A DNA stretch of 64,000 bases from Alcanivorax sp. 24. GTDB taxonomy: Bacteria; Pseudomonadota; Gammaproteobacteria; Pseudomonadales; Alcanivoracaceae. Positions 26,575-60,303 of the stretch are shown here, piece by piece. The stretch covers positions 1 to 64,000 of the forward strand of contig NZ_SNUA01000007.1 in NCBI RefSeq assembly GCF_004360225.1. Reading direction: 5' to 3'. The notes beneath the pieces are model-generated. The model searched no databases, was not told the DNA's origin, and saw only the letters and a list, made by a program, of their open reading frames with translations. The first letter of the stretch is position 1, and each line of letters starts with the position of its first letter. The position numbers were made by a program, and so were the translations under genes.

Positions 26575-27135
26575 ATGTGGGTATCTATTTGCTCTGTCAT
26601 TGTGGCCGTTTTGGCTTTTGGTTTCTCGGTTTTTTCTTTTAGGGAGAGTCGGAGAATAGATTTTGATAAGGCTATGCTGAATTCGTGTGATGATTTGCTC
26701 TGTCGGTCCTATGAGCTGTTGGTGAAAGGTAGGCAGGGAAATGGTTTTCCTGTATCTGACCGCGTCCAGTGGCTCACCTCGGCCAGATACATAATGAGAT
26801 ATTATGACGCCAAGAAAAGAATAAAAACGAAGCCGTATCGGGTGTTGGTAGACAATACGGAGGAGGTTTGGCGGCATGAATTCTATAAGGCGTTAGACTT
26901 TCCCGAAGTGATGCGAAGTGAGTACTTTTATCATGATGAAAGCGGTGGAATCTACCCGACTTCCGCGATGATTATTGCCGAATTCTCAACATGGAAGGAA
27001 GATGTCCGTGACCCGGTCGATGACTACGATGATGAGCGCTTTCTAAATAACAAAAAGTACAAGGCGAGGTTCTCGGCAATTTTTAGTCATGCTGCCCGAT
27101 ACTCGCAGTATAGAGAAATGATGGCTGACGAATAA
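26575..27135 (+). CDS. hypothetical membrane-anchored protein, low GC
   Basis: A 186-residue protein with one N-terminal membrane helix (SICSVIVAVLAFGFSVFSFR) and a charged soluble domain rich in Asp, Glu, Arg and Tyr. GGGAGG at 26563-26568 is well placed for ATG 26575. It shares low GC and strand with the preceding gene and likely forms a two-gene cassette at the edge of a defence segment. No family recognised. A role in defence is only a guess from position. Confidence 0.65.
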   Translation: MWVSICSVIVAVLAFGFSVFSFRESRRIDFDKAMLNSCDDLLCRSYELLVKGRQGNGFPVSDRVQWLTSARYIMRYYDAKKRIKTKPYRVLVDNTEEVWRHEFYKALDFPEVMRSEYFYHDESGGIYPTSAMIIAEFSTWKEDVRDPVDDYDDERFLNNKKYKARFSAIFSHAARYSQYREMMADE

Positions 27136-27179
27136 ATTTGCTCTACGGATGCTTGAGATTTGGATGGCCCGTTGCTAGA

Positions 27180-27275
27180 TTTAAAGAACCTCTTGGAAGA
27201 GGCACTGCCTCCGGGTGCGGCAACACCCGAAGGCAGCTAACCACAACAGACTGGATAGGAGTCCATCATGGCTGC
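27180..27275 (-). ncRNA. predicted SymR-type antisense RNA
   Basis: On the minus strand, TTTACC (27309-27304) and TATGAT (27286-27281), 17 bp apart, form a promoter inside the symE 5' end. Two hairpins follow: CTGCCTTCGGGTG/CACCCGGAGGCAG (27236-27205) and CCTCTTCCAAGAGG (27202-27189), the latter followed by TTCTTT like an intrinsic terminator. The resulting RNA of about 95 nt would cover the symE start codon and ribosome site, as SymR does in E. coli. Confidence 0.5.
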
Positions 27276-27546
27276 TCGCAATCATAAGCCACGCGCCCGC
27301 GTAGGTAAAAGCGAAACCCCTAAACCCAACCGCGAATTTCCCTATATTCGCCACCTCAAGGTCCATCCGGGCCAGTACTACCATCAAACGCTATCCAACA
27401 GCTGCCGGGTCAGGCTTGTGCCCTGGGTCCATATCAAGGGCTATTGGCTGGAGGAAGCCGGCTTTACCGTCGGCACCCCTGTGCACGTGGAAGTCAGCGA
27501 GGGCCGCCTGGTGATCTCCGCCGTCCCGGAGCCCGCCGGCACTTGA
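27268..27546 (+). CDS. symE: SymE-family type I toxin
   Basis: A 92-residue protein ending in the SymE/AbrB-like segment LVPWVHIKGYWLEEAGFTVG and VHVEVSEGRLVISAVPE. In E. coli SymE is SOS-induced, condenses DNA and is controlled by the antisense RNA SymR; family members often sit in restriction-modification loci. That is the setting here, with Vsr, a methyltransferase and a restriction enzyme directly downstream. ATAGGAG lies 8 nt before the ATG. Confidence 0.85.
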   Translation: MAARNHKPRARVGKSETPKPNREFPYIRHLKVHPGQYYHQTLSNSCRVRLVPWVHIKGYWLEEAGFTVGTPVHVEVSEGRLVISAVPEPAGT

Positions 27547-27865
27547 TATCGCCCGTGCCGCCGCCTTGCCGGGCGGCGGCTGCCGCTATGGAGCCGGAGC
27601 TCCACTCAACATTATCCGACGGATTTGATCGGCGGGAAAATACTCGGACAGAAGTGTTTCCCTATAGGCGGCAATGGCCATGCCTTGCAGGCGCCAGATG
27701 GTCCGCCAGAAGAAAACGATTGAAATTTGATCGGCTGGAGCCATGCTGCTTGTTTGATTGACTGTCCTTATGTACAGTTTTTGGGTGTTCGCGCCGAGGG
27801 TGCCCGGCGGGCCCATCTCTACTATCATGGCGGCCAGCATTGAGCCGCCATCCCAGAGAGAGCCC

Positions 27866-28285
27866 GTGTCGGATACCCTTTCGCCCAAGGCCCGCAGCGA
27901 GCGCATGTCGCGCGTGAAGGCCAAGGATACGAAGCCCGAGATGACGCTGCGGCGCCTGGTGCATGGCCTCGGGTTCCGGTACCGGCTTCACCGGCGCGAT
28001 CTGCCGGGGACGCCGGACCTGGTGTTTCCCGGCCGTAGGGCCGTGATCTTCATGCACGGCTGCTTTTGGCATCGCCATCCCGGCTGCGGCCTTACCCGGA
28101 TGCCGAAATCCCGGGTGGAGTTTTGGCGGACCAAGCTGGAGGCCAACCGCGAGCGGGATTTGCGGCATCAGCGGGCGCTGGCTGAGATGGGGTGGCGGGT
28201 GCTGGTGGTCTGGGAATGCGAATTGCGAGATTTGGACGCCGTGGCCAGTAAGGTCGAGGCTTTTCTAACCCAGGAAGAAGCGTGA
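27866..28285 (+). CDS. vsr: very short patch repair endonuclease Vsr
   Basis: A 139-residue T:G-mismatch nicking endonuclease that repairs deaminated 5-methylcytosine. The Vsr core is clear: DTLSPKARSERMSRVKAKDT, LHRRDLPGTPDLVFPGRRAV with the metal Asp in TPDLVF, HGCFWHRHPGC and GWRVLVVWECEL. GTG 27866 reproduces the usual family start; ATG 27827 would add 13 residues. It lies 10 bp before the methyltransferase gene whose product creates its substrates. Confidence 0.93.
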   Translation: MSDTLSPKARSERMSRVKAKDTKPEMTLRRLVHGLGFRYRLHRRDLPGTPDLVFPGRRAVIFMHGCFWHRHPGCGLTRMPKSRVEFWRTKLEANRERDLRHQRALAEMGWRVLVVWECELRDLDAVASKVEAFLTQEEA

Positions 28286-28295
28286 GAGGGAACCA

Positions 28296-29510
28296 GTGAA
28301 ATCAGTGGAGCTTTTCGCGGGCGCTGGCGGTCTCGCCCTGGGCGCCTCACTGGCGGGGTTCGAGCCACTGGCGGTGGTGGAGTGGGACCGCTGGGCCTGC
28401 GACACCATTCGTGAGAACCAAAAGCGTGGCTACCCGGTGGTCAAGGATTGGCCGGTCTGGCAAGGCGATGTGCGCGCTTTTGATTGGTCATCCATTCCGG
28501 AAGATATCGACCTTCTGGCCGGCGGGCCGCCCTGCCAACCCTTCTCCATGGGCGGCAAACACAAGGCCTTCGGTGACAAACGCGACATGTTCCCCGCTAC
28601 CGCCGAGGCGGTGCGCCGCCTCAAGCCCAAGGCGTTCATCGTGGAGAACGTGCGGGGCCTTTTGCGGCCCGCCTTCAGCAATTACTTTGAGTACATCAAG
28701 CTCCAGTTGGAATTTCCCGAGGCGAGCCGAAAGTCTGGCGAGGACTGGGTTGCTCATTTCAAGCGGCTGCAGCGGGAGAAAACGTCCGGCGTGCTTCATC
28801 GCACGGGGTTGGCTTATAACATCGTCACCAATCTGGTGAATGCCGCCGACTATGGTATTCCGCAAAAACGGGAACGTGTGTTCATCGTGGGCTTTCGCTC
28901 CGATCTGGACATCCGCTGGAACATTCCGGACCTGACCCACAGCCACGATTCACTGCTGCATTCCCAGTGGGTTTCCGGCGAGTATTGGGATCGGCACGGT
29001 ATTTCCTCGCGAAAGCGTCCCCAGGTCCCCGCGAATCTGGAAAATCGGGTCAAGAAACTGAGTTCATCGCTTCCTCTGGCGCCACTGAAACCGTGGCGCA
29101 CGGTCCGTGACGCGCTCCAGGACATTCCCGACCCGCGCAAGCGAAAGCCGCATGATTTCTTCAATCATCGCCACCAGCCCGGCGCCAAGGTTTACCCTGG
29201 CCATACCGGCAGCCCTCTGGATTTGCCGGCCAAGACGCTTAAGGCCGGCGACCATGGCGTGCCCGGCGGTGAGAACATGATGATTCTTGACAATGGCGAG
29301 CCGAGATACTTTAGTGTTCGCGAATCCGCCCGGATTCAGACTTTCCCGGACGGCTTCGTTTTTCATGGCTCATGGACCGAGACCATGCGGCAATTGGGGA
29401 ACGCCGTGCCCGTCGCGTTGGCCCGCACCATCGCGGCTTCCGTTGGAGAGCAGCTCATGGAACGACGGATACAGTTGGAGGCACGCTCCCGAAAACAAGG
29501 CGTTGCATGA
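28296..29510 (+). CDS. DNA (cytosine-5-)-methyltransferase
   Basis: A 404-residue C5 methyltransferase. SAM-binding motif I is ELFAGAGGLALGASLAGFEP, the catalytic Cys80 is in GGPPCQPFSMGG, ENVRG is motif VI and QRRR-type motif VIII appears as PQKRERVFIVGFR. The target-recognition region lies between about 230 and 330, then QLGNAVPVALA closes the fold. Grouped with Vsr and a GIY-YIG nuclease, it is the methylase of a type II system; by analogy with Eco29kI the site may be CCGCGG. Its stop overlaps the next start (ATGA). Confidence 0.95.
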   Translation: MKSVELFAGAGGLALGASLAGFEPLAVVEWDRWACDTIRENQKRGYPVVKDWPVWQGDVRAFDWSSIPEDIDLLAGGPPCQPFSMGGKHKAFGDKRDMFPATAEAVRRLKPKAFIVENVRGLLRPAFSNYFEYIKLQLEFPEASRKSGEDWVAHFKRLQREKTSGVLHRTGLAYNIVTNLVNAADYGIPQKRERVFIVGFRSDLDIRWNIPDLTHSHDSLLHSQWVSGEYWDRHGISSRKRPQVPANLENRVKKLSSSLPLAPLKPWRTVRDALQDIPDPRKRKPHDFFNHRHQPGAKVYPGHTGSPLDLPAKTLKAGDHGVPGGENMMILDNGEPRYFSVRESARIQTFPDGFVFHGSWTETMRQLGNAVPVALARTIAASVGEQLMERRIQLEARSRKQGVA

Positions 29511-30468: not shown

Positions 30469-30793
30469 CGTTGTCGTCCCGGTTGGCGGTTGTTACGGGC
30501 AATCTTTCTTGGAATAGCCTGCTCTTGCTCTTAACTGGTTTCAAGGCACCAGGAAGCCGCCCCCGCAAACCTGTCCTTCAAAGGCTTCTCCATCACCTCC
30601 ATACGAGGCCGCGGTAACGCTACCGCCTCTTGATGCCTCCACTCCCGAGTGAACACTCGACGAAAAAGACCTATGATCCCCAGACACCTTGTTCGCGGCT
30701 TGCTGTCCGGCAGCATCATCGGATAAGCCATCCGGGGCGGTATAAGCAACAAAAGCAGCACCCATCCAATAATGACAAAACCGGGAGAGCAGC
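30469..30793. other. 325-bp intergenic stretch
   Basis: No gene, tRNA or clear repeat seen. It separates the defence segment from the tannase-family gene and contains GGGAGAG at 30783-30789 serving the start at 30794. Confidence 0.4.
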
Positions 30794-32504
30794 ATGAAAA
30801 CAAGAAATGGCCTGACAAGGCTGGGTATGGCGCTATTCGGGATTTCCTCCGTCGCTCTTGTGAGCTGCGGGGGGGGACAGTAGCGATTCGCACGCGCAGC
30901 GGCCGATGTCCTGCGATCAGTTGGTCAGTCTGACGATTCCCGTCGACGCCATGGAATTATCAACCTCCGGCGGTGAGGTCACGGCGGCGGAGGTGGTCGA
31001 GGCCAGCGGCTCCGGCGCGGCGGCAGTGCCTGAGCATTGCCTGGTATCCGGGCGCATTGCGCCGGTGGATCCGCGGGCGCCGGACATTCAATTCAAGGTG
31101 GCGTTGCCCACCGAGTGGAATTCGAAAGTGCTGATGTTCGGCGGTGGTGGTTTCAATGGTTCCATTCCCGCGATCACCGGCAATGTGTCCCAGGGGGCGC
31201 CGAATCAGCCGACGCCACTCGGGCGGGGCTATGCAACCTTCGCCAGCGATTCCGGGCACCAGGCCAATGAGTATGGTTCCCAGGATGGTCGCTGGGGTCT
31301 CAGTGATGAGGCGGTGCGTAACTTTTCCGGCGAGGCGCTGAAGAAAACCCGGGACGCCGCCACCTTTGTGATTCAAAAGCGCTACGCCAGCGAGCCGGCC
31401 CAGCGCTATTTCGCAGGGGGCTCCACCGGTGGCCGTGAGGCGCTGACCAACATTCAGCGGTGGCCGGACGATTGGGATGGCGCCATCGCCTGGTATCCGG
31501 CCTGGAACAACGTGGCCGCGCTGCTTGCCGGACAATACATCAGCCGTGCCCTGGCGGAACCCGGTGCTTATCCGGATTCCGGCGAGCGCCAGAAGTTACT
31601 CGATGCTGCTCTGGAAGCCTGTGATGGGCTGGATGGGGTCGAGGACGGCCTGATCAGCGACCAGCGTCAATGCAACGAGACCTTTGATCCGGCAACCGCC
31701 ATGGTGGACGGCGGCGATCTGCGTTGTCCGAATGGCGCCGACGACGGCGACCATTGCCTGTCCGATGCTCAGATCGACGCTCTGAAGGCGATGGATGCCG
31801 GCGTCGAGTTCAACTTTACCCTGGCCAGTGGCAAGACCGGCTATCCCGGCAGCAACGTCTGGGGCGCGGATCTTGGCATCACCACCATCGATACCCCGGT
31901 ACAACCCACGGTGGTGTTCCTGGCACTGGGCACCGCGCAGCCGGTGCAGCCGGACATGCCCCGCAACGCGCCGTACCTGAGTGTGTTGGTGGATCAGTGG
32001 GTGAAGTATTCGGTGGCCGGTGATGCGGATTTCAATTCCTTTGAGCTGGACCCGATCAACCCCGAGCAGCAATACGCGGAACGGATCAGCGAACTGAGTG
32101 GTATGCTCAATTCCGGCACGGATATCTCCGAGTTCGCGGATCGCGGTGGCAAATTACTGCTGGCGCATGGGCTGGCGGATGTGCTGGTCAGCTCCCGGGC
32201 CACGGAAATTTACTACCAGCGGTTGTTGGAGCAGATGGGCCAGGACAAGGTGGATTCCTTTGTGCGCTATTACGAGATCCCGGGGTTTGGTCACGGTGCG
32301 AGCTCGCACTTCCACGCTACCTGGGATTCCCTGACCGCCCTGGAAAACTGGGTGGAGCGGGATGTGGCGCCGGAAGATCAGGTGACCATGGACCTGATCG
32401 GCGCACCGGGCCGCACCCGGCCGTTGTGTGACTACCCGGCGTGGCCCCGCTATGTGGAGGGCGGTGACCCGATGTCGGCATCGTCATTCGAGTGTGTCGA
32501 ATAA
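30794..32504 (+). CDS. tannase/feruloyl esterase-family lipoprotein, out of frame at a G8 tract
   Basis: The catalytic body is an open frame from 30906 to 32504 (532 codons) of the tannase/feruloyl esterase family, with the nucleophile Ser in FAGGSTGGREAL, an acid in HGLADVLV and His in IPGFGHGASSHF. Upstream, ATG 30794 with GGGAGAG encodes a lipoprotein signal peptide (MKTRNGLTRLGMALFGISSV then ALVSC) whose frame stops at 30883. Removing one G from the run at 30869-30876 fuses the two: C-GGG-DSSDSHAQRP-MSCDQL. So the assembled sequence is frameshifted, either truly (off state) or by a sequencing slip. The Cys pair that normally flanks Ser and His in this family is replaced by Gly at both places. 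Confidence 0.8.
30869..30876 (+). repeat. G8 homopolymer at the lipobox of the tannase-family gene
   Basis: Eight consecutive G directly after the lipobox Cys codon. Seven (or ten) would put signal peptide and esterase in one frame. Confidence 0.9.
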
Positions 32505-33836: not shown

Positions 33837-35660
33837 CTATTGCTGGGTCACGGATTTGAGGCAGTAGAGGTTCGGGTCCAGGGCTGGCAGCGTATTGTCC
33901 GGCAGCTCCTCCCGGAAGTACTCCAGCAGTGGCACCACATAGGCGACATCGGAATTCTCGAAGGCCTCTGGGCGGGCCTCGCGCACTTCACCGAACGTAT
34001 CGTAGCCATCCTTGCCGAGGCCGGTGAAAGAGTTGGTGGCCACGGAGTAGGTGGCGTTGCCGCCAATGGCGCTCCAATTCCCGTTTTCATCCCGTACCTC
34101 GACGTTTTGAATACCCGTTCCCGCCGGCGCGCCGAGCACCACGTCGTAACGCAGGTTGGCGGAATAGGGGAAGGCGCCAGTGGACGCCGAGATACCCTGG
34201 GCATAATCGAGCGCTTCGTTGAGCACTTTGACGATCTCCGCGCCGGTCATATCAATGGTCACCACGGTGTTGGAGAACGGCAGGATGTTGTAGGCGTCCG
34301 CCACGGTGAAGGCCCCATCCTCGAGCGGCGCACGCACGCCGCCGGCGTTCTGGATCGCCACATCGGCTTTTGGTAGATAGGTGAGGAAGGCGTCGGCCAC
34401 GACCTGGGCGGCGTAGCTGCCCGTGGGGGTTTCCCCAGCCTGGAACGGTGTGGGAATACGTTCGAACGGCATGTACTGCACCACGTCCCCCAGCGTTTCC
34501 TGCTTGAAGCTCTCCATTTCCGCTTTGTATGGCGTGAGAATATCGAGAATGGCCTCGGACTCCTTGGCGATCCGCACCGTGGCGAGGCCGTCAATCACAC
34601 CGTTGATCCGCGCCGCTTGTTCGCTGCTGGCCGCCACCCAGGCGCCACTGGCGTCCTGCACCTGATAGTTATCGCCAACCAGGAGTTCAACATTGCCGTC
34701 AATGTCGGTGATGACGCCCTCGGCGTCGAAATTGACTTCCAGTTTGCCCAGCCCCTTGGCGTACTCCCAGGCCTGAACGATATAAACCGGCTGCCCGTCC
34801 GGGTTGTTCACCACTGTCGGGTAGTCACCATCCACGTCCAGCCCCAGGGTCTCGAACTCGCCGGTGGTGTCGAGAAGATCGTGGGTATCACCGCCAACGA
34901 TCAGATCGATGTCGCGGACGTTGGCGGCCAGCTCCTGGTCGAAGTCGTAGCCCAGGTGGCTGAGGACGATGAACTTGTTGATGCCTTCATTCTTCAGGGT
35001 GTAGATGTGTTCACGTACCGAGGTGATCTCGTCATCAAATTCCACGGCGTCGGTGACCAGGGAAGATTCCTGAGTCTTCTCCACCTTGAGAACGCCGATG
35101 ATGGCTACTTTCTCTCCGTCGATTTCCTTGACCACATAGGGGGCGATATCAGAACCAAACAGCGGGCTGTCCGTGGTCGGGTGAACGTTGCCGGCGATCA
35201 CCGGGAAATTGACCGTTTTCAGCAGTTCGGCGAGATGCGCTTCACCCTCGTCGAATTCGTGGTTGCCCAGCTCATAGGCGTCCAGACCGATAGCGTTGAA
35301 CACCTTGAAATCCACCTCTCCCTTGAAAAGGCTGAAGTAGAGGGTGCCGTTCAATTCGCCGCTATTGAGGACCAGAGTGTGGTCGTCGCGATATTCGTCG
35401 ATGGCCGTTGCGATACGCGGGAATCCGCCAAGGTCGACACGCACGGTTTCAGCGCCGACCAGGGCCGGATCGTAGTCCAGGCTCAGGTCCTGGCTTTGTC
35501 CCTCGAAATAGGAGTGGTGGTCGTTGGTGTGGAGCACCTGCAACCGCAGCGGTTTCGCCTCCGGAGCCGGATTGTCATTGTCACTGTCGCCCCCGCAGCC
35601 GGCCAGAAATAGTGTGAAGCCAGCCAAGGCCAGGGCCGGAAGAGTTCTGTAAATAGCCAC
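33837..35660 (-). CDS. 5'-nucleotidase/NadN-type metallophosphatase lipoprotein
   Basis: A 607-residue surface or periplasmic lipoprotein (lipobox LAGC, Cys22). The metallophosphoesterase domain has D47 and H49 in HTNDHHSYF, N133-H134 in GNHEF, and later VLSHLGYD and GGDTHD. The C-terminal nucleotidase domain follows (QNAGGVRAPLEDG, YNILPFSNTV). It would hydrolyse nucleotides or NAD for uptake. The usual bridging Asp motif (GDxxxGT) reads SGELNGT, with Glu102 in place of Asp and one residue fewer, so metal binding may be altered. Confidence 0.88.
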   Translation of the reverse strand: MAIYRTLPALALAGFTLFLAGCGGDSDNDNPAPEAKPLRLQVLHTNDHHSYFEGQSQDLSLDYDPALVGAETVRVDLGGFPRIATAIDEYRDDHTLVLNSGELNGTLYFSLFKGEVDFKVFNAIGLDAYELGNHEFDEGEAHLAELLKTVNFPVIAGNVHPTTDSPLFGSDIAPYVVKEIDGEKVAIIGVLKVEKTQESSLVTDAVEFDDEITSVREHIYTLKNEGINKFIVLSHLGYDFDQELAANVRDIDLIVGGDTHDLLDTTGEFETLGLDVDGDYPTVVNNPDGQPVYIVQAWEYAKGLGKLEVNFDAEGVITDIDGNVELLVGDNYQVQDASGAWVAASSEQAARINGVIDGLATVRIAKESEAILDILTPYKAEMESFKQETLGDVVQYMPFERIPTPFQAGETPTGSYAAQVVADAFLTYLPKADVAIQNAGGVRAPLEDGAFTVADAYNILPFSNTVVTIDMTGAEIVKVLNEALDYAQGISASTGAFPYSANLRYDVVLGAPAGTGIQNVEVRDENGNWSAIGGNATYSVATNSFTGLGKDGYDTFGEVREARPEAFENSDVAYVVPLLEYFREELPDNTLPALDPNLYCLKSVTQQ

Positions 35661-35913
35661 GATTCAACTCCGATTCGAATAAATGGAAGGCAAGTCGATG
35701 CGCATCCTAGAAGCTGTTGATGACAGTCTGGTGGCCGTTTTGTGGACGGAATATGGCTATGTGTGGCAGTGACTTATCCGCGAAACAGCAGGGCGCAGCT
35801 CAATGTCAGGGAGACAGGCCCGCACCCCTTGCCGGTTAGTTATGCTAAATTGCGCCATTGGGGGCTGCCTTGGGGTGGCTATATTTTTGAAATAATACGA
35901 GCAGGGATATGCC

Positions 35914-37314
35914 ATGAAAAAGAACGCTTTTTATAAGCAAGCACTAGCGGTAGTGATCGGTACCCTTATATCTGGCGCCCTCGGAGCGGCCTCTATCTTC
36001 GATGCCGATGAGGTGGTGGATCTTTACCAGGCTGGAGCTCAGGTGCGGTTTCAGGGGTTCGATATCACGTCGCTACCGGATGACCGGTTTGCGGCGACTT
36101 GGGTGGAACATAATATTGAAACCGACTTGGATCGGGTCAGGCTGGCACGCTTCGACCAGAACGGTCACATCGTGGGAGACATTCTGACAGTATCTGAAAA
36201 TAGCGCTTACCCGGATTTCGGCTTGTCAGAACCCATGGTCGATGCCAGTGGTAGTGGTGGCCTGGTGGTGGTTTGGGGTGGTGGCTCGAAAATGGACTCC
36301 TCGGATTGCCGAACAAACGTGATGTTAGGTCGAGTGGGGATTGACGATAGCGTATCAAGTCCATGGCTGGCCTCGCCTGGATACGGGTATAGCTGTAATC
36401 CGGATTTATCGGTAAATCAAGATGGGTGGTCCCTGGTAGCTATGTCCTACGATATTGGGCACGGTTATGTCTATCAATTGTCCGTTCCCGAGGGCGGGGG
36501 AGGGGGGCATTTTCTCCTTGGCTCGGACACTAATCTGGACATACCTGTAGCAGTAGCCATACAAGAGGGTAGTGGCCAGATTATCTGGCCGGTAATTAAA
36601 GATGGTGACACGGTTCTGATGGTGATGCGTCACAGCTATTTTGGTTCGGAACCGCCTAGAGAGCCCTGGGCGCTGGATGCTGGGATAGGCGAGGGCGAAA
36701 GGTTATATCAAACTTTCCCGGTCTTGGCGGCTGGCTCGGATGGTGGATATGCCAGCGCTTGGTTTCAAAGTGCCACAGTTAACACGCAAAAGGTATTTAG
36801 TCAGCGAATTCAATATATAAACGCCGATGGTAGTGCGGGTGCATCGGCCACTATTGGAGAGGATTCACTCGATGTCTTGTCAGGTAAACCGGATATGGCC
36901 GGGGACCGAAACGGAACATTTCTCATCGGCTGGACCGTTTTGGAGAATGGAGAGCCTCGTTACCGAAAAGTCACGGCTTTCGACGAGGAAGGGGTAATAG
37001 ATACCCCGGCAGTCATTGTGTCCAAGGGCGCCCCGGGTTTGTTCGATGCATCCGCCAACACCAGAGTGGCGTTGAACGCCGACCTGGCGGTGGCCGCTTG
37101 GTATGAGCAGGCTGATGGTAACAGTGGCCCTGTTTTGAAGGCTCGTATTGGTTCCCCTCCGAAGCGTTCGGATGTCGGACAGGGTAGTGGTGGTGGGGGC
37201 GGTTCTACCGGACCTGTGTCGTTTTTTGGGCTGGCCCTATTGGCACTGCGACGTCAGCTCACTTATAAACAGACCATTCGCCATGACTCTGAATTGAAAG
37301 GGTATTCAACGTAA
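35914..37314 (+). CDS. hypothetical secreted protein with GlyGly-CTERM-like sorting signal
   Basis: A 466-residue exported protein. The signal peptide is MKKNAFYKQALAVVIGTLIS and a little beyond. The body is beta-rich with repeated Gly-Asp turns, suggesting a propeller or sandwich. Near the C-terminus GSGGGGGSTGPVSFFGLALL then ALRRQ resembles a GlyGly-CTERM anchor cleaved by rhombosortase. Unusually, 18 further residues follow the Arg pair, so the stop may have been lost. No rhombosortase gene is in the window. GCAGGGA precedes ATG 35914. Confidence 0.65.
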   Translation: MKKNAFYKQALAVVIGTLISGALGAASIFDADEVVDLYQAGAQVRFQGFDITSLPDDRFAATWVEHNIETDLDRVRLARFDQNGHIVGDILTVSENSAYPDFGLSEPMVDASGSGGLVVVWGGGSKMDSSDCRTNVMLGRVGIDDSVSSPWLASPGYGYSCNPDLSVNQDGWSLVAMSYDIGHGYVYQLSVPEGGGGGHFLLGSDTNLDIPVAVAIQEGSGQIIWPVIKDGDTVLMVMRHSYFGSEPPREPWALDAGIGEGERLYQTFPVLAAGSDGGYASAWFQSATVNTQKVFSQRIQYINADGSAGASATIGEDSLDVLSGKPDMAGDRNGTFLIGWTVLENGEPRYRKVTAFDEEGVIDTPAVIVSKGAPGLFDASANTRVALNADLAVAAWYEQADGNSGPVLKARIGSPPKRSDVGQGSGGGGGSTGPVSFFGLALLALRRQLTYKQTIRHDSELKGYST

Positions 37315-48981: not shown

Positions 48982-49773
48982 ATGGAGTTCGCCACCATTG
49001 AGTTTCGTCTGGAGGACAGCGTCGCTACCCTGGCGCTGAATCGTCCGGAACGTCTGAACAGTTTCAATGAGCAGATGCACCGGGAAGTACGGGAAGCCCT
49101 GTCCATGGTGGAGCAGGATCAAACCGTGCGGGCCCTGCTGATCACCGGGAACGGCCGTGGTTTTTGCGCCGGCCAGGATCTTTCCGACCGGAGCGTGGCG
49201 CCCGGCGCCGAAGCGCCCGATCTGGGCTCTTCCATCGAAACCTGGTACAACCCGCTGATTCGTACCCTGCAGCGTTTGCCGATGCCGGTGATCGCGGCGG
49301 TCAACGGTGTCGCCGCCGGTGCCGGCGCCAATATCGCCCTGGCCTGCGATCTGGTCATCGCCGCCCGCTCCGCCAGTTTCACTCAAGCGTTCTGCAAAAT
49401 CGGTCTGGTGCCGGACTCCGGTGGCACTTGGCAACTGCCGCGCCTTGTGGGGATGGCCCGCGCCAAGGGGCTGTCCATGCTGGGTGACAAATTGACCGCC
49501 GAGCAAGCGGCCGCCTGGGGTCTGATCTGGCGATGCGTGGACGATGATGCGTTGCGCGCCACCGCCACCGACCTCGCTCGCCATCTGGCCACTCAGCCGA
49601 CCCGTGGTCTTGCCCTGATCAAGCAGGCTTTGAATCAAAGCTTTGACAACGATCTCGATACACAGCTCGACGTGGAGCGGGACTTGCAGCGTGATGCGGG
49701 CCGCACCGGAGACTATCGGGAAGGCGTCGCCGCGTTCATGGAAAAGCGCGCACCCGAGTTCCAGGGTCGTTAA
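48982..49773 (+). CDS. paaG: 1,2-epoxyphenylacetyl-CoA isomerase PaaG
   Basis: A 263-residue crotonase-fold enzyme that converts the ring epoxide to oxepin-CoA. The oxyanion-hole segments are GRGFCAGQDL and NGVAAGAGANIALACD; the catalytic Asp is in KIGLVPDSGGTWQLPRLVGM. These match PaaG, not the hydratase PaaF. First gene of paaG-paaI-paaJ-paaK. Confidence 0.95.
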   Translation: MEFATIEFRLEDSVATLALNRPERLNSFNEQMHREVREALSMVEQDQTVRALLITGNGRGFCAGQDLSDRSVAPGAEAPDLGSSIETWYNPLIRTLQRLPMPVIAAVNGVAAGAGANIALACDLVIAARSASFTQAFCKIGLVPDSGGTWQLPRLVGMARAKGLSMLGDKLTAEQAAAWGLIWRCVDDDALRATATDLARHLATQPTRGLALIKQALNQSFDNDLDTQLDVERDLQRDAGRTGDYREGVAAFMEKRAPEFQGR

Positions 49774-58575: not shown

Positions 58576-60303
58576 ATGACATTGCGTATTTGGGCCATGT
58601 TGCCAGTGTTGATGTTATTGGTCGCTTGTGGCGGTTCATCATCCAGCGGGCCGGCTTCGTCAGGCGCTTTACCGGATCATGACGAGCCTCCGTTGGAAGA
58701 TCCCGAGCAGGACAATCCCCCGGAAGAGCCGTCCCCGCCGGAGGGTGGGCCGTTGGCGGGAGTGGTGCAAAAAGGGCCTTTTCAGGCGGGATCCAAGGTA
58801 ACGCTGGTGCCATTGATTCTGGGGGCCGTGGATGAAGGTGCGCGAGTTCTGGAAACCACGGTGGACGACCAAGGCCGCTATGCGTTTGCGGCGACCGGGC
58901 TGAGCGGCCCGGCATTGCTGAAAGTTCAAGGCTATTGGTTCGACGAGCGTAACGGCCAGTTCAGTTCGGAGCCGATAACGCTGAGAGCGGTGGTGAACGT
59001 GGCGGACGGCAAGGGCAACATTAATCCGCTCACGGATTTGATCAGCGCGCGCTTGCAAGCGGCTTTGGCGGAGCACGATGACGATTATCCGGCGGCGCTG
59101 CAAAGCACCCTGTTGGAATACCACGCGCTGACGGGGCTGCGCATGCCGCCGGGGGCACTGGACATGCTGAAAGGGTTTATCGTCGGCGAGACGCTGGATG
59201 TGGCCTACTATCAGGAAATCGGCCTTTTGCCGATGATTCTGTCGGCAATGGCACAGGGGGGAATGGAAGGGCTGGCGGCGGCGCGGGAAGGCTTTGCCGC
59301 CGGTGGCGCCGAGAATGAAGAGGCCCGCGCGTTCTGGCGGACCATGTGGACGGGCTATGCCGAACTAATAGCGGAGCATAATGACGAGAGCGCGCTTCTG
59401 ACCCATCTCCAGGGACATCTGTCGGGGCAATACCCGCACGCCTCGGGGGAGGCGTTTCCGCCTTATTTGGGCGGTGTTCAGAGCCTGTTGGCAGGGTACG
59501 CGCCCAGTTGCTCGCCGGGGCCGGACGGAAGTCATTCGGAGCATAACCGGCGCCTGTGTCTTGGTGGCGACGGGCAGTCGTTGATGGTCGGCGGCGAGTA
59601 TGGGCAAGCCGGGCTCTATCTGGATGCGCCGACGGACGCCAGTTATCGGGTTGTCGTGCAGCAGTCCGATCCCGTTCCGAATGATGCGCCTGTCTATCTG
59701 GAGAGCGTTTCCGCCGGTAATGGCAATGCCAGTCTTTATGAGCAGTGTCAAAACCACGGCAATTGCTCGGTGGCGACCTCGGCCAGAAGACAAGGCAGTC
59801 GGATGTATTTTCGCATCCGAACCGGGGGCGAAGCGCGTCAAGTACGTGTTTATGTGGAGCGCCTGGGAGACGGGCACCCGCAGCAACCGATGGTGATTGC
59901 CCCGGATCGTGTGCCTCACCATGGCAGAGCGGGAATCCGTGATGGCGGCAGTACACCGCCGTTGACACACTCGGCATATGCCACGGAAAACAGCTTCTCG
60001 CACTACTTCTTTTATGTCGGCGTGGGGGACAAAACCCTGGTGGTGGATAATTTCCTCTGTGGCGATGAGGTGTTGCCGCCGGCATGGGGCATGGAAATAC
60101 TGTTGGCGAAGGTCAGTGGGCAGGGCTATGAAACGGTGGCATCGAGCCCGGGAGCCCGAAACTGCGAGGGGATTCGTCATGATATCGTCGCGGGGGAAAC
60201 CGGATTGTACTATCTGAGAGTTCATCCGGATTACGAACGCGCAACGGGAACCCAGCCGTCCTCCGTCAGTCACGATTATCGTATTCGTCTGTTACCGAGG
60301 TAG
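58576..60303 (+). CDS. hypothetical lipoprotein (VQKGPF-type)
   Basis: A 575-residue lipoprotein with lipobox LLVAC (Cys18) and an acidic Pro-rich linker. GVVQKGPFQAGSKVTLVPL followed by GRYAFAATGLSGPALLKVQG and YWFDERNGQFS resembles a recurring proteobacterial lipoprotein family with a carboxypeptidase-regulatory-like N-terminal domain. The C-terminal region may bind substrates. GGGAGGGGA supports ATG 58576. Function unknown. Confidence 0.7.
   Translation: MTLRIWAMLPVLMLLVACGGSSSSGPASSGALPDHDEPPLEDPEQDNPPEEPSPPEGGPLAGVVQKGPFQAGSKVTLVPLILGAVDEGARVLETTVDDQGRYAFAATGLSGPALLKVQGYWFDERNGQFSSEPITLRAVVNVADGKGNINPLTDLISARLQAALAEHDDDYPAALQSTLLEYHALTGLRMPPGALDMLKGFIVGETLDVAYYQEIGLLPMILSAMAQGGMEGLAAAREGFAAGGAENEEARAFWRTMWTGYAELIAEHNDESALLTHLQGHLSGQYPHASGEAFPPYLGGVQSLLAGYAPSCSPGPDGSHSEHNRRLCLGGDGQSLMVGGEYGQAGLYLDAPTDASYRVVVQQSDPVPNDAPVYLESVSAGNGNASLYEQCQNHGNCSVATSARRQGSRMYFRIRTGGEARQVRVYVERLGDGHPQQPMVIAPDRVPHHGRAGIRDGGSTPPLTHSAYATENSFSHYFFYVGVGDKTLVVDNFLCGDEVLPPAWGMEILLAKVSGQGYETVASSPGARNCEGIRHDIVAGETGLYYLRVHPDYERATGTQPSSVSHDYRIRLLPR

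Follow-up and report, generated by a model that had tools for sequence, protein, structure and literature searches.

Does a run of eight guanines behind a lipoprotein signal peptide act as a switch for a surface esterase, or is it simply a place where one base has slipped? The question is raised by a single locus of an Alloalcanivorax species, lying in a window (the whole stretch of DNA that was analysed, 64,000 nucleotides) that comes from contig 7 of a draft genome (4.76 Mb, 99 contigs). The original prediction had placed a signal peptide with a lipobox and an esterase in adjacent frames, on either side of the G run, and had proposed phase variation of the enzyme, with a sequencing slip as the main alternative. 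Its coordinates and its reading of the frames are correct, and relatives have a single frame: this assembly does contain a split lipoprotein esterase, which corresponds to one lipoprotein gene elsewhere, while the proposed phase variation is unsupported, for reasons given below. The features of the locus are as follows.

30783..30789, + strand: likely ribosome-binding site GGGAGAG, 4 bases upstream of the ATG at 30794, invariant across five aligned species.
30794..30883, + strand: signal-peptide open reading frame of 29 codons plus stop, reading MKTRNGLTRLGMALFGISSVALVSC, then GGGQ, with TAG at 30881-30883.
30866..30868, + strand: lipobox Cys codon TGC (LVSC); Cys-Gly-Gly is conserved in the 10 further genus genomes that have the gene.
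30869..30876, + strand: G8 tract GGGGGGGG, the point of the frame break, directly 3′ of the lipobox Cys codon.
30864..32504, + strand: tannase/feruloyl-esterase-family body, an open frame of 546 aa with its stop at 32504.
31422..31424, + strand: putative catalytic Ser codon, in GGS (GCS in MHETase), from alignment to MHETase and 14 sequences.
32292..32294, + strand: putative catalytic His codon, in HG (HC in MHETase), from the same alignment.

The GGGAGAG motif is likely to be the Shine-Dalgarno sequence of the signal-peptide frame, and MKTRNGLTRLGMALFGISSVALVSC reads as a lipoprotein signal peptide with the lipobox LVSC. The offset between the signal-peptide frame and the esterase frame is one base. 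The esterase body carries no internal stop in this assembly; its first listed start is the ATG at 30906, which gives 532 aa up to the same stop.

Comparison with relatives is a cheap way of separating the possible readings of such a break. The esterase gene is present in 11 of 13 genus genomes, our own included, with Alloalcanivorax balearicus and A. xenomutans as its closest named relatives (94%); family-wide, 12 of 46 genomes matched, namely the same 11 plus a single distant match from beyond the genus. In each of the 10 remaining genus genomes that carry the gene, the signal, Cys-Gly-Gly and the body stand in one frame (569–577 aa from the first Met), so that the lipobox signal is joined to the body in these relatives, where a lipoprotein is predicted, and lies in a separate frame only in this assembly. 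The single-contig relative G002 illustrates the difference: its intact gene starts with the same signal peptide (96%, residues 1–27), and aligned with the window its residues 1–27 fall in one frame (96%) and its residues 16–569 in another (93%). Outside the genus, the gene is also continuous from a lipobox-like signal in Marinobacter bryozoorum, a Bordetella, Ramlibacter pallidus and a Burkholderiales MAG. One sequence with a cut and uninformative 5′ end (L007) was left out of the ortholog dN/dS, cysteine and frame counts, and L004, L011, L012 and L013, which come from outside the genus, are not among the 10 genus relatives.

The run itself is confined to the window lineage. Behind the lipobox Cys, the two glycine codons of the 10 genus relatives are GGT GGC (four genomes), GGC GGC (three), GGA GGT (two) or GGG GGT (one), and the longest G run that they produce is five; in the window lineage both are GGG. 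Since the relatives' codons give runs of at most five, the long run is new in this lineage.

The esterase body itself shows no decay. When it is compared with its three closest relatives, dN/dS comes to 0.063, 0.080 and 0.083, and on these ratios the body is under purifying selection. With such selection and no internal stop, the frame break is recent, reversible or technical. The same strong constraint would be expected just as well if the gene were unbroken in the cell. Private amino-acid states number 19 in the window protein and 5–8 in the others among four close sequences; this excess carries no weight, because the window protein is also the most diverged of the four by dS.

These observations are best explained by an incidental slip of one base, either in the cell or during sequencing, in a run born by chance. 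More specifically, we favour a real one-base slip in the sequenced clone, an incidental and probably recent mutation that is not an evolved switch, and give it a probability of a little under one half (about 0.47); that it happened in the cell and not in sequencing is our inference. On this reading the gene encodes a lipoprotein esterase of the tannase/feruloyl-esterase family that is conserved and exported. In this lineage only, chance would have turned the two glycine codons that follow the lipobox Cys into GGG and so created the G run. Slippage during replication, in the clone or culture that was sequenced, could then have changed the length of the run by one base and broken the frame. The normal start would thereafter yield only a 29-residue peptide, no lipidated enzyme would reach the envelope and the isolate would probably make no enzyme. 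The locus resembles an ordinary frameshifted gene, whether a recent pseudogene or a consensus error, in having one lineage-specific homopolymer indel in a gene that is otherwise intact and whole in its relatives; we found no difference from that class at the window esterase. If the break is real, this is an isolate without an exported esterase that its sister species retain, which is relevant when strains of the genus are compared for ester or polyester breakdown.

A chance origin of the run is consistent with the base composition. The window has three G7 matches, two of them inside this very G8 run; dinucleotide shuffles average 26. Runs of at least eight Gs number 41 in this genome, within a range of 5 to 45 across 13 genus genomes; 11 runs here have nine Gs or more, and 125 have exactly seven. 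The tract is no more than composition would give, and G8 runs are not enriched in this genome. Among 132 mechanically chosen open reading frames of at least 250 aa on this contig, GGG makes up 15.6% of glycine codons, so two consecutive GGG codons are expected in about 2% of Gly-Gly pairs. A Cys-Gly-Gly motif with GGG codons yields a G run behind the lipobox by itself, and the position of the run alone is therefore weak evidence for phase variation.

Similar arrangements exist elsewhere in the genus. We inspected all 36 places in the 13 genomes where TGY is followed by at least seven Gs. A lipobox expression fits five of these, one of them unconvincing (L073); of the four convincing cases with G7 or G8, three are in frame (L054, L077, L087) and only the window copy is out of frame. 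L077 (G7) and L087 (G8), with the run near position 1500 and directly after the lipobox Cys, apparently represent one lipoprotein gene in two Alloalcanivorax species, and both can be in frame because the neighbouring codons differ. L054 (1451 onward) is a second lipoprotein of this genome, with an in-frame G8 right after the lipobox Cys and a Big_5 domain.

Alternatively, the slip may be technical: the cell would have an in-frame tract and an ordinary lipoprotein esterase, and the deposited consensus would be wrong in the length of the homopolymer. We regard this as a substantial possibility, short of even odds. Sequencing errors fall in homopolymers, which is where this break lies; the body is free of decay and the gene is whole in 10 genus relatives; and the genome is a draft of 99 contigs. 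One of the two G11 runs of this genome (L070, near 1502, after an Hpt-domain ORF) is some 40 bases away from the end of a contig, and the assembler may therefore have had difficulty with some runs. The other (L064, near 1498) is inside a 136-aa ORF or at its end, and this ORF has no Pfam match; both runs are longer than the window G8.

Against a technical origin stands the state of the rest of the assembly. We compared contig 7 (269,493 bases) with 400 kb of G002 by tblastn of G002 ORFs. A match of at least 75% on contig 7 was obtained for 179 G002 ORFs, and eight of these were flagged as falling in two frames, besides the esterase, which the filter itself missed owing to an overlap of about 12 residues and whose split was confirmed separately. 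Seven of the eight are antisense or over-long ORF calls, as judged from Pfam, opposite-strand ORFs and start positions. The flag at 27013-29115 is antisense to a serine hydroxymethyltransferase gene, and that at 59225-60127 is antisense to the ORF at window 48982-49773, which we take by eye to be an enoyl-CoA hydratase. At 35231-36436, 121548-123590, 128325-129596, 134612-135859 and 284060-284758 the break precedes the Pfam domain, and we read these as over-long start calls. The eighth, at 185287-186120, had no Pfam match on either strand. With this one case left, the comparison of G002 ORFs found no second convincing broken gene on the 269-kb contig, and the widespread indel error sought there was not found. 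The reverse comparison gave 12 two-frame flags among 175 of the contig's own ORFs; these are raw flags, and would be breaks in G002. A cruder blastn comparison listed 39 of 177 and 52 of 177 ORFs as having indels whose length is not a multiple of three; these counts are unclassified.

The behaviour of other long G runs points the same way. We judged the 41 runs of at least eight Gs by hand, adding codon scores since long ORFs alone are too weak a guide. On this reading, 13 lie in genes with the frame kept (L031, L035, L036, L038, L044, L045, L049, L050, L054, L056, L058, L060 and L062), one, the window run, breaks a gene, and 27 are intergenic or unassigned. For L062 the codon scores are slightly negative, and for L060 they tie on one side; Pfam was applied to only two of the 13, L031 and L054. 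Ten ORFs near seven runs were searched against Pfam in all, with matches for L070, L031 and L054 only. As the 13 other runs are in frame, runs of this kind were assembled well elsewhere. This favours an assembly that is sound on the whole, with which one error at the esterase is still compatible.

The tract might instead be an adaptive device that lengthens and shortens reversibly, switching the surface esterase on and off, as originally proposed. The tract does sit directly behind the lipobox of a surface enzyme whose body remains under selection, and a change of one unit in its length shifts the frame within the gene. There is also a likeness to the nalP and mspA contingency loci of Neisseria, in which a G or C run lies inside the coding sequence of a surface protein and a one-base change breaks the frame. 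Short tracts can switch: according to PMC3723659, the poly-C tracts of nalP span 6–15 bases and are ON at 7, 10 and 13, and PMC5953494 cites switching of siaD at G7. The latter, a survey of the Neisseria phasome, sets its cut-off at nine Gs and notes that G7 runs are common. The window tract, at eight Gs, is below this cut-off, which the siaD example shows not to be absolute. As to conservation, a run longer than five occurs in none of the 10 genus relatives; this absence rules out conserved phase variation as the leading reading. The contingency loci of Neisseria surface proteins also differ: their poly-G tracts have at least nine Gs, and the nalP and mspA tracts vary across isolates, whereas the window run has eight, is not conserved in relatives and is not known to vary in length between strains. 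Our genome set contains one genome per species, and an exact-pattern search for a second strain in viral_contigs gave no match. Furthermore, the lipobox with G7 or G8 is in frame in the three other convincing cases of the genus, and G8 runs are not enriched here. Adaptive phase variation is possible but unsupported, and we consider it unlikely. A narrower form, in which the G8 is a newly born contingency locus of one Alloalcanivorax lineage, reversibly switching a surface ester hydrolase, with an off state that may leave a cytoplasmic form from the ATG at 30906, has in our view a slim chance of being correct.

That some enzyme is still made by recoding (slippage on the G run, as long G runs can be slippery for polymerases) or by a restart at the ATG at 30906, giving a cytoplasmic form without signal peptide, is very improbable: this ATG lies 22 bases downstream of the stop at 30881-30883 and the Pfam domain starts at residue 45 counted from it, but no Shine-Dalgarno-like sequence precedes it, the body keeps eight cysteines that suit an exported protein, and the relatives use one continuous frame and hence have no conserved recoding signal.

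As for the enzyme itself, the body matches Pfam PF07519 along the entire profile (1–490 of 490; E 8.6e-112; 374.9 bits against a cut-off of 29.8), and an NCBIfam search of the body gave no family match. Among solved structures, MHETase entries come closest (E about 1e-55), and the Ser, Asp and His positions of the Ideonella sakaiensis MHETase align with the window esterase. In the alignment, all 14 sequences (13 relatives plus the window esterase) have the putative catalytic Ser, Asp and His, and all 14 keep eight cysteines outside the active-site pair; a catalytic role for the Ser (31422..31424) and His (32292..32294) seems probable on this basis.

The difference lies beside these residues. 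In MHETase a disulfide between Cys224 and Cys529 stands next to the catalytic Ser and His, and PMC7568301 describes it as conserved in the tannase family. Here, the corresponding positions (31419-31424 and 32292-32297, next to Ser173 and His463 in body numbering) lack both cysteines: the CS-D-HC pattern of MHETase and the tannase family contrasts with GS-D-HG in the window esterase and GS-D-H[GA] in all 14 sequences, with Gly before the Ser and Gly or Ala after the His. The genus also has more distant paralogues: both of the two sequences read GCS, and the one whose frame extends far enough reads HC. In this respect these esterases are a variant clade without the active-site disulfide of the family; their membership by the PF07519 profile stands. 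A literature search returned no title or opening of an abstract on a tannase clade lacking the disulfide pair, which is weak evidence of novelty, and in a 2026 paper on Alcanivoracaceae carboxylesterases (PMC12886402) the word tannase is absent from the main text. One of the distant tannase-family paralogues seemingly occupies two open frames in G002 (462 + 112 aa; L026, L029) and is whole in G004 (551 aa; L027).

Finally, the surroundings of the gene are variable. Between 25974 and 30637 of the window the only match to the equivalent part of G002 is a patch of 97 bases, and both flanks align. Vsr endonuclease, cytosine methyltransferase and Eco29kI-type restriction enzyme genes are found in this segment, along with a TacA1-like antitoxin ORF. 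Upstream of about 30640 the DNA differs among aligned species too, and the last ~140 bases before the esterase are common to close species. With variable DNA upstream and these ~140 bases shared, the esterase stands at the edge of a variable region, which suggests that an insertion hot spot may adjoin it.
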